The notes beneath the pieces were generated by a model. That model ran no database searches and was not told the DNA's origin. It worked only from the letters and a program-made list of their open reading frames with translations. DNA of 64,000 nt from Paratractidigestivibacter faecalis (GTDB lineage Bacteria > Actinomycetota > Coriobacteriia > Coriobacteriales > Atopobiaceae): NCBI RefSeq assembly GCF_003416765.1, contig NZ_QSNG01000001.1, positions 1,390,742 through 1,454,741 of the forward strand, given 5' to 3'. This document shows, piece after piece, positions 17,658 to 20,773 of the stretch; position 1 is the first letter of the stretch; each line of letters begins with the position of its first letter. The translations under genes and the position numbers were made by a program.

Positions 17658-18122
17658 CTACAGCTTGGCGAGAAGCGCCTCGCAGCCGGCAAGGACGTCC
17701 TCGTAGGTGGCGTCGAAGTCGCCGGTGTACCAGGGGTCGGCCACGTCGCGCGGCGAGTCGGTCCAGTCGAGCAGCCGGCTCACCTTGCCATCCGGGTCGC
17801 CGCGCAGGATGCGCTCCAGGCCCCAGGCGTTCTCCTCGTCCATGTAGACAACGTGATCCCAGTCCGCATACTCCGCGCGTGTCATCTGGCGCGCACGGTG
17901 GCGGCCCACGGGCACGCCCACCTCGCGAAGCTTAGCAACCGTGCCGTGGTGGGGAGGGTTGCCAAGCTCTTCTCGGCTGGTTGCGGCAGAATCAATGATG
18001 AACTCGTCCTCGCGCCCGGCCCGGCGCACGAGGTCCTCCATCACGAACTGGGCCATCGTCGACCGGCAGATGTTGCCGTGGCAGACGAAGAGGATGCGGT
18101 GGACGGGCTGGAGGTTATTCAT
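17658..18122 (-). CDS. low molecular weight protein-tyrosine phosphatase
   Basis: A 154-residue LMW-PTP. The P-loop FVCHGNICRST has nucleophile Cys14 and Arg20 (C-X5-R-S), and the general-acid region is 'DPWYTGDFDATYEDV'. 'DWDHVVYMDEENAWGLERI' is the family's DxxxxMD stretch. Such enzymes dephosphorylate bacterial tyrosine kinases that control polysaccharide export, or arsenate in related forms. The last codons contain a GGCGAGAAG word read on the other strand (ALLAKL). Convergent with the dehydrogenase gene. Confidence 0.93.
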   Translation of the reverse strand: MNNLQPVHRILFVCHGNICRSTMAQFVMEDLVRRAGREDEFIIDSAATSREELGNPPHHGTVAKLREVGVPVGRHRARQMTRAEYADWDHVVYMDEENAWGLERILRGDPDGKVSRLLDWTDSPRDVADPWYTGDFDATYEDVLAGCEALLAKL

Positions 18123-18158
18123 GAACGAATCTTTCCGAACGAAGCCAAGTGGGGCGCC

Positions 18159-19275
18159 TTATTGAACGATGTCCCCAGGCCCTGACGATGCCAGCGAGCG
18201 CGACAGGTTCATGCTGGGAACCTCGATTATGCGCCAGAACGCAACGGCGGCGAGCATGCTTGCGGGCAGCGAGACCGCGGCAATCGCGAGCGGGTCGGCA
18301 ATCCCGAGCTTGGGCAGCAGGGCGACGAGCGCCCCGATGACAATGGCGTGGGTGAGGTAGAGGCTGTACGACACCTTTCCCAAGAAGACCATGGGGGCCG
18401 TGGAGAGAGCGCGGCGCGTGAACCCGTCGGCAATCGAGACAACAACGACCACTAGGCAGGCTGCGTTCATGATGGTGGACTTCAACGCCTCGAGGACCCC
18501 GCCGGGATGCCACACGAGCGAGAGCTCGATGACGCCAACGGAGGCCGCAAGCAGCGCCAGCTCGGCCGGAACCGGGATTTGGACAGCCCTGATCTTGTCG
18601 AATCGCCTGGCCACCATGACGCCAAGCCAGAACATCAGGCAAAAGCGCAGCGGAAAGTAGCCCGTCCAGTGCGAGACGAACACCGCAGCAAAGGTCGCAA
18701 TCACAGCGCGGTCCGTCCGGCGAATCCTTGATATGCACCAGATGGCCAGCGGGAGCGTCAGGCTGAACCAGAGCTCCCAGCTCATGGACCAGACGGGAGA
18801 GTCAACGCGAACAAGCGGCGCGCCAAAGAGGTTGCTGCCGTCATCGGACACGTTGAACAGCACGTCAAACTGCATGAGGATGTCGTGAACCACCGTGGGA
18901 AGGCCCGCATCGTAGGCGACGGCAAGCGCAGAGCGCGACGTGGACCCCAGGCGCCAGGCCACGTAGCCCGCGGGAAGGGCCAGCGCAATCGCCGCAAACA
19001 GCGGCACGCAAAGGCGGACGACCCTTCTTGGGTAATAGCCAAGCCAGTCATACCCGCCGCTCCCCATGCGTTTAAAGGGAACAAGGGACAGCACTATGCC
19101 TGACAGGATGAAGAACACCATGACCGACGCGGTGCCAGGGAAGAGACTCGGAACCCCCCCCCGCGCCAAACGGCTTGACCATGATGTCGACGTGCAGCAG
19201 GAACACCATCAGCGCCCCGAGCCCTCGCAGGCCGTCAAGCGACAAGACGCGCTTCTCGCGACCAGACATCGTCAC
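18159..19275 (-). CDS. acyltransferase 3 family membrane protein, out of frame at a G9 tract
   Basis: Two reading frames together make one acyltransferase 3 (OafA-like) membrane protein that O-acylates cell-surface sugars. The first frame, from ATG 19275, gives 'RVLSLDGLRGLGALMVFLLHVDIMVKPFG', the classic N-terminal helix and catalytic His. It is then interrupted by a run of nine G on the coding strand (19154-19162 on the plus strand as C9). The rest (18159 to about 19150, 'GTASVMVFFILSGIVLSLVPF' and about nine further helices) continues in another frame. Eight or eleven G would restore one continuous protein of about 370 residues. As read, the gene is off, so either phase variation or a homopolymer sequencing error. 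Start region has a TATAAT -10 at 19308-19313. Confidence 0.82.
19154..19162. repeat. homopolymer C9/G9 tract in the acyltransferase gene
   Basis: Nine consecutive C on the plus strand, G9 on the coding strand, inside the first tenth of the acyltransferase gene. The reading frame changes exactly here. Confidence 0.95.
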
Positions 19276-19444
19276 CCCTTCCTTCGTGCATTTGAGCAGA
19301 GTGCCTCATTATACCCTCGAGGATTTAGCGCACATTTTGACGAGAAAGACCCCCGAATCGGGCGGATTCGGAGGCCTTGTTCATCTTTATGTACACTGTC
19401 CGGCAACGTCGCCGGCGCTGGCGGCGACGCGGCCGCCGCCCGCC

Positions 19445-20773
19445 CTACTCGGCCTCGGCCGCCTCCTCGCGGCGGGCGACCTCGTCGATGAGGATGGCGT
19501 CGCCGTACTTGGCGCCGGCCACGGAGAGGCCCATGAGCACACCCATGCCCGTGATGTAGGCAAAGAGCATGGCAGGGTTGACGTCCATGACCACGCCGGA
19601 GAGGATCGGGGTGATGACCTGTGCGGCCATGCTCACCGTGTAGTAGTAGCCAGAGTAGCGGCCCACGGAGTTGGAGCTGCAGCACTCGAGGATCATGGTG
19701 TAGACGCACATGTCCACGCCGCCCAGAGAGACGCCCATGAGCAAGAAGACCAGGTACAGCACGGGAGAAAAGCCCGGCACCAGCCACAGCACCAGCGGGC
19801 ACGCCACCATGACGGCCGAGCTGGCCAGCGCGACCTTCTTGCGGCCCACCTTGAGCGAGAGGTTGGCCAGCGGCACGTAGCTCGCCAGCGCACCCACGAT
19901 GGTCACGATGTTGATGATTGCGTAGGACCCGCCGGCCATGCCGTAGAAGATGTCCGCGTAGCGGCTGATGTTGGTGGTCATGGCGTTGTAGCTCATGTAG
20001 TAGAAGAACGTGGCGGCAAGCAGCATGGCAATGGAGAGCCTCATAGAGCGGTCGGCCACGCGCTCCTTGCCACCGGCCTCCGGGGAGTCGTCCTTCTCGA
20101 CCTCGTCCTCGCGGATGCCCATCTCGAGGCTCTTCTGGTGCATCTTCCGCACCAGCGCCGGCTCCTTGACCAGAAGGCCGTACACCACGGCAGACACCAG
20201 CACAAAGGCGGCCTGCAGGAGGAACAGCGGCAGGTAGTCGGGCCGCTCCACGTTGGGGACCATGACCGAGATGGCAACCAGCATGACGCCCGTGCCGGCG
20301 TAGCCCACGATCTTCTGCACGGAGTCGGCCTTGGTGCGCAGCGGGCGCGGCGTGATGTCAGCCACGATGGCCACCGTCATGGTGCGGTACATGCAGATGG
20401 CAAGCAGCGTGATCAGGATGGTGCAGATAAGCAGCGGCAGGCTTCCCGCGTTGTTTGCGATTGCGATGAGCGGCACAGAGAGCGTGGCTATGCCGGAGCC
20501 CAGCAGAATGAAGGGGGTGCGGCGGCCGAGCTTGCTGGCGCAGCGGTCCGACAGAATGCCGAAGAGCGGCAGCAGAAAGAGGCCAAAGACGTTGTCGATG
20601 GCCATGATCGCGCCCGTCAGGGAGTTGGAGAGCCCAAAGGTGTTGGTGAGCATCTTGGGCACGATGCCGTCGTAGACCTGCCAGAAGCTGATCATGCCCA
20701 TGAACGGCAAAGATGCCAGGGCAATGGCGCGGTTGTCGAGCTTGGCCGCGCGCCTTGTTGCGGTGTCTGCCAT
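19445..20773 (-). CDS. MFS transporter
   Basis: A 442-residue major facilitator superfamily transporter with about 12 helices and a long central loop rich in charged residues (about 205-235, 'EVEKDDSPEAGGKERVADRS'). The loop between helices 2 and 3 reads 'GILSDRCASKLGRRTPFILLG', which matches the SLC45/GPH-like sugar transporter group, and 'LKVGRKKVAL' is the mirror motif in the second half. ATG 20773 has AGAAAGG upstream, preferred over an ATG nine codons earlier. Substrate, probably a glycoside or disaccharide, is inferred from group only. Confidence 0.85.
   Translation of the reverse strand: MADTATRRAAKLDNRAIALASLPFMGMISFWQVYDGIVPKMLTNTFGLSNSLTGAIMAIDNVFGLFLLPLFGILSDRCASKLGRRTPFILLGSGIATLSVPLIAIANNAGSLPLLICTILITLLAICMYRTMTVAIVADITPRPLRTKADSVQKIVGYAGTGVMLVAISVMVPNVERPDYLPLFLLQAAFVLVSAVVYGLLVKEPALVRKMHQKSLEMGIREDEVEKDDSPEAGGKERVADRSMRLSIAMLLAATFFYYMSYNAMTTNISRYADIFYGMAGGSYAIINIVTIVGALASYVPLANLSLKVGRKKVALASSAVMVACPLVLWLVPGFSPVLYLVFLLMGVSLGGVDMCVYTMILECCSSNSVGRYSGYYYTVSMAAQVITPILSGVVMDVNPAMLFAYITGMGVLMGLSVAGAKYGDAILIDEVARREEAAEAE

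Follow-up and report, generated by a model that had tools for sequence, protein, structure and literature searches.

A nine-G tract in an acyltransferase-3 gene of Paratractidigestivibacter faecalis: a candidate translational phase switch, read in its OFF state

When a bacterial gene is broken at a run of nine identical bases, are we looking at a dead gene, a sequencing error, or a working gene caught in its silent state? This question is raised by an acyltransferase-3 gene (PF01757; 18159..19269, minus strand, with its ATG at 19269-19267 and its stop TAA at 18161-18159) in the window, by which we mean the whole 64-kb stretch of DNA analysed here, from the host-associated Atopobiaceae species Paratractidigestivibacter faecalis. 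A sequence-only reading had pointed to a nine-G tract at 19154-19162 and held that the acyltransferase is split exactly there; both claims were borne out. On the plus strand the tract is a run of nine Cs, making it G9 in codons 36-39 of the minus-strand gene, directly after the coding sequence of transmembrane helix 1. The ATG at 19269, served by a good Shine-Dalgarno sequence (AAGGAAGGGG; 19275..19284, minus strand; present too in the Collinsella homologue L034), opens MSGREKRVLSLDGLRGLGALMVFLLHVDIMVKPFG, which is followed by the G run and then by a wrong-frame tail with a premature stop at 19072, giving a frame of 65 residues (19072..19269, minus strand) that carries AT3 positions 2-42. The remainder of the acyltransferase, 330 codons past the tract in the neighbouring frame, is open to the TAA at 18159 and belongs to a 336-residue frame (18159..19169, minus strand) that carries AT3 positions 42-326 and has no start with a visible Shine-Dalgarno sequence. 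Since the Pfam AT3 model passes from the upstream to the downstream piece at position 42, the gene is broken at the tract and nowhere else; in the same profile comparison the intact homologue L056 spans positions 2-326. Further upstream lies a TATAAT hexamer resembling a -10 element (19308..19313, minus strand), found also 5' of the Collinsella and Slackia homologues, which the promoter scan missed because no good -35 was found.

Could either piece stand in for the whole enzyme? The first transmembrane helix, coded 5' of the tract, holds the R-X10-H motif (RGLGALMVFLLH, Arg15 to His26; 19192..19227, minus strand), which in this helix is absolutely conserved and essential in AT3 proteins (PMC9833829). 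The RXXR motif near helix 3 is found in the downstream frame as PRRVVR (R49-x-x-R52), invariant in the alignment, and the predicted product is a stand-alone AT3 protein. As the catalytic R-X10-H is absent from the 336-residue frame, this 3' frame alone would be no substitute for the enzyme; a rescue by translation restart within it was discarded on the same ground, and because its TTG start has no Shine-Dalgarno sequence. The gene lies between an intact upstream MFS transporter gene (PF07690; 19445..20800, minus strand) and, 36 bp past its stop, a low-molecular-weight protein tyrosine phosphatase gene (PF01451; 17658..18122, minus strand), and these two flanking genes give no pointer to the acyl acceptor.

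Over the 330 post-tract codons, comparison with two complete close copies at ~90% identity gives dN/dS values of 0.30 and 0.24, which indicates that the part now out of frame was under purifying selection. Considering these values together with the absence of any second lesion in the gene and the intact orthologues in many relatives, the acyltransferase is not long dead, and a long-dead pseudogene was rejected on the dN/dS values and the lack of other lesions.

A dozen genomes from one genus of Atopobiaceae (Thermophilibacter provencensis and Olsenella among the names) carry orthologues with 55-60% identity, and all the orthologues whose start region was examined are open through the tract site, none with a G run longer than five there. 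The three closest copies belong to other families: those of Collinsella bouchesdurhonensis (L034), Slackia isoflavoniconvertens (L035) and G289 (L056, of the Slackia family, f2), which share 86-90% protein and ~90% DNA identity with the window gene and are alike in the start region. At the tract site each of the three is in frame, with six Gs and a single T. Against them the window gene has three extra Gs and one extra T, a four-base difference that refines the earlier frame arithmetic, correct in itself, by which eight or eleven Gs would restore the frame. The loop in the distant orthologues is one residue longer than in the three six-G copies and equals the in-frame length of the window gene, so that the latter seems, as sequenced, only a short step away from a functional form; judging from this loop length, the six-G form may perhaps be a derived, stabilised one. 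With six Gs in the closest copies and no G run in the distant orthologues, the long tract is not conserved, and it was absent from the 12 Atopobiaceae and several other homologues in which it was sought. The comparison with relatives that had been proposed as a check therefore returned intact homologues, and with them a short, six-G site in the closest ones. Tract conservation is a hallmark of selected contingency loci - a supporting feature, and not a strict requirement.

The acyltransferase gene has also travelled. The three closest copies share 96-97% DNA identity among themselves, and in G289 a fragment 95% identical to the window's MFS gene adjoins the acyltransferase copy, so we read the distribution as recent gene transfer, the source of which was probably an Atopobiaceae-like chromosome. 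The stretch of ~90% DNA identity to the Collinsella, Slackia and G289 copies (L071, L072, L073/L074) covers window positions 17679-19635, that is, the acyltransferase with its leader.

How unusual is the tract itself? It is the sole G or C run of at least seven in the window, where the next longest is six. Dinucleotide shuffles lead us to expect ~25 matches to the 7-mer in the window, against three found, all of them from the G9 run; since the shuffled sequence is richer in G runs than the real one, the length of G9 alone is not above chance, and its rarity by composition was dropped as stand-alone evidence. Across the 2.1-Mb genome there are 28 G runs of at least seven and 12 of at least eight, so that long G runs are strongly depleted and the remaining ones therefore merit a look. 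Nor is the tract forced by the protein, since GGG accounts for only 193 of the 1542 glycine codons in the window.

Several of these remaining runs lie at surface genes. A G10 (contig 1, 1936208-1936217; L016:4009-4018) falls where the signal peptide of a pilin-like surface protein (vWA, Cna_B and FctA domains) is coded; 1031 residues of the protein lie past the run, and the sole start codon does not share the reading frame of the mature part. We regard this gene as a probable second OFF switch in the same genome. A 1250-residue FctA/SpaA surface protein has a G8 at the end of its signal peptide (301238-301245; L009:4239-4246) and a G9 lying 76 bp before the gene (301029-301037; L009:4030-4038); 17 bp separate this G9 from a downstream TATACA that resembles a -10 element, a placement from which the run could act on transcription. 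A further G8 (674263-674270; L012:2964-2971) keeps the frame of a second acyltransferase-3 gene, which lies among genes for glycan synthesis; a glycosyltransferase and a membrane protein with DUF6541 are encoded next to it. As a control, none of the 16 exact G7 runs in the genome falls in a signal peptide. In the sister genome (G001, the one other genome of the genus), five of the 14 G runs of at least nine fall where the signal peptide of a secreted or LPXTG surface protein is coded (L142, L144, L156, L164 and L168), three in frame and two out; if signal-peptide-coding segments are assumed to make up 0.6-2% of the genome, the chance of this is 1e-8 to 6e-6. G024, from another genus of Atopobiaceae, has two G9 runs in signal-peptide segments (L176, L196), and G017 has one C10 case, while most other family members sampled have no signal-peptide G runs. 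The pattern, pronounced in certain genera, is not universal.

We favour, as fairly probable, the reading in which G9 is a translational poly-G phase switch in the AT3 gene, now OFF. During replication the run would gain or lose Gs through slipped-strand mispairing, and such slips would stay uncorrected where MutS-type mismatch repair is lacking. Indeed, a domain search found the MutS_I domain absent from this genome and 20 relatives, with controls positive in 11 of 14, and with no MutS found homopolymer slips are expected to persist. In the sequenced state a ribosome would start at 19269, pass the first transmembrane helix, misframe through the tract and stop at 19072; in other cells, with the tract in frame, a ten-helix acyltransferase would be made and decorate an envelope glycan. 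What we infer in this scheme is that the population holds a mixture of tract lengths, that the switch is reversible and that the acceptor is a surface glycan.

In favour of the switch we count the split at the tract, the recent purifying selection, the intact homologues and the lack of a detected MutS, and further the out-of-frame G10 pilin and the signal-peptide tracts of the sister genome; against it stand the six-G in-frame closest copies and the apparent interruption of the Slackia copy, which also fits the loss of a dispensable gene. As expected of a contingency locus, an intragenic tract sets the frame of an otherwise intact gene, in a permissive repair background and among a set of tract-bearing surface genes; the tract is not kept in orthologues, and this lowers our claim. 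A length of nine Gs is also near the lower limit for tracts known to switch. The phase variation that the sequence-only reading had called probable is thus upheld by the split, the selection, the missing MutS and the companion tracts, and weakened by the lack of tract conservation in the closest homologues.

Could the frameshift instead be a one-off loss of function, possibly fixed in the strain, which a hot tract made likely and in which no selected, reversible switching takes part? The absence of the long tract from the closest homologues fits such an event, as does the accessory character of a gene that moves between families at ~90% DNA identity. So does the Slackia isoflavoniconvertens copy, which looks interrupted, so that loss of the acyltransferase seems to be tolerated: in G341 this copy is split over two contig ends (L073:119 and L074:9688) with a short overlap and foreign flanks on both sides, and it appears to be interrupted by an insertion sequence. 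However, a simple loss sits poorly with the absence of a second lesion, with the strong purifying selection acting on the codons that are now out of frame, and with the similar tracts in other surface genes of the genome and genus, and we consider it unlikely.

A homopolymer length error in the assembly, leaving a gene that is in truth intact and does not switch, is likewise unlikely in our view. G runs are hard to sequence, the state of the tract is read from one assembly of the species, and a reference Bifidobacterium genome has been found to disagree with the majority tract length (PMC9187656), which counts for such an error. Yet a codon-usage Viterbi scan of 57.5 kb of window coding sequence, blind to breaks near a gene's end, flagged no other frameshift, its two flagged frame changes both being ordinary stop/start junctions; the G8 tracts inside other genes of the genome read in frame; and the difference at the tract is one of an extra T too, and not of G count alone. 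An error here would also leave the signal-peptide clustering of long G runs in the sister genome unexplained. A generally indel-rich assembly was set aside, given that no other frameshift was flagged in the window and that one candidate was seen elsewhere: a TraG/VirD4-like conjugation gene (contig 1, ~1688247; L086 ~1205) changes frame without a homopolymer, through natural decay or sequence error.

Programmed slippage in expression, in which RNA polymerase or the ribosome slips on a constant G9 to yield a fixed full-length fraction, would account for selection on the protein coded past the tract, and a nine-G run can in principle be slippery for both machines, yet a programmed site needs a conserved tract, of which the homologues have none, and we hold this explanation to be highly improbable.

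Returning to the poly-G switch, we may ask whether the acyltransferase is one member of a larger set. We lean slightly towards the view that some Atopobiaceae without MutS run a whole repertoire of poly-G switches. Most of the tracts would sit where the signal peptides of pilins and LPXTG adhesins are coded, with a glycan acyltransferase as a further site, and clonal populations would then show mixed surfaces. The nearest actinobacterial precedents are the pilus G runs of Bifidobacterium breve and the homopolymers of Gardnerella. In B. breve UCC2003, an actinobacterial gut commensal, sortase-dependent pilus loci (bbr_0113, bbr_1889) are switched by intragenic runs of 10-11 Gs, with the ORF in two frames and replication slippage turning it ON and OFF (PMC9187656). 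The window gene shares with them an intragenic G run in a surface gene read in two frames, and the out-of-frame G10 pilin of this genome is a direct analogue; unlike these pilins, for which length mixtures were measured, the window gene codes for an AT3 enzyme, belongs to the Coriobacteriia and is a candidate switch. Gardnerella is another actinobacterium in which long homopolymers are numerous, placed within surface genes of the LPXTG type or ahead of them, and tied to phase variation (PMC11287997); there the tracts lie mostly upstream of ORFs and colony variants were sequenced, whereas the window tract is intragenic and in a different class. As for the enzyme family, phase-variable AT3 genes are described in Haemophilus and Salmonella (PMC9558356). 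The oafA gene of Haemophilus influenzae encodes a phase-variable O-acetyltransferase of the same family acting on LOS, a surface glycan; in contrast to this Gram-negative target in a mucosal pathogen, the window gene resides in an actinobacterium of Gram-positive type, and an envelope glycan is its putative acceptor. Searches of the open-licence literature for phase variation in Collinsella or the Coriobacteriia at large turned up nothing on G runs; the kind of switch is already known, and the bacterial class may be new. Confirmation would place common gut and oral Coriobacteriia among the organisms that leave their surface identity to chance slippage of DNA. Adhesion to the host, recognition by the immune system and sensitivity to phages would all be affected, and single reference genomes would mislead as to which surface genes can be expressed.

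Long G runs are also found outside genes. The two longest of this genome, G12 (contig 1, 541968-541979; L010:3969-3980) and G13 (1487381-1487393; L013:9982-9994), are intergenic, one of them with a tRNA-Val gene on one side and an IS-type transposase on the other. In the complete chromosome of the relative G017, runs of C10, C24, C22 and C15 stand in an array with a long A run behind them (C1:1500676-1500758; L161), which is either an extraordinary feature among bacteria or an artefact of assembly. In the same genome, two genes for HAD-type hydrolases (L157, L171) have runs of 9-10 Gs directly ahead of their start codons, where the runs would serve as, or displace, the ribosome-binding site.
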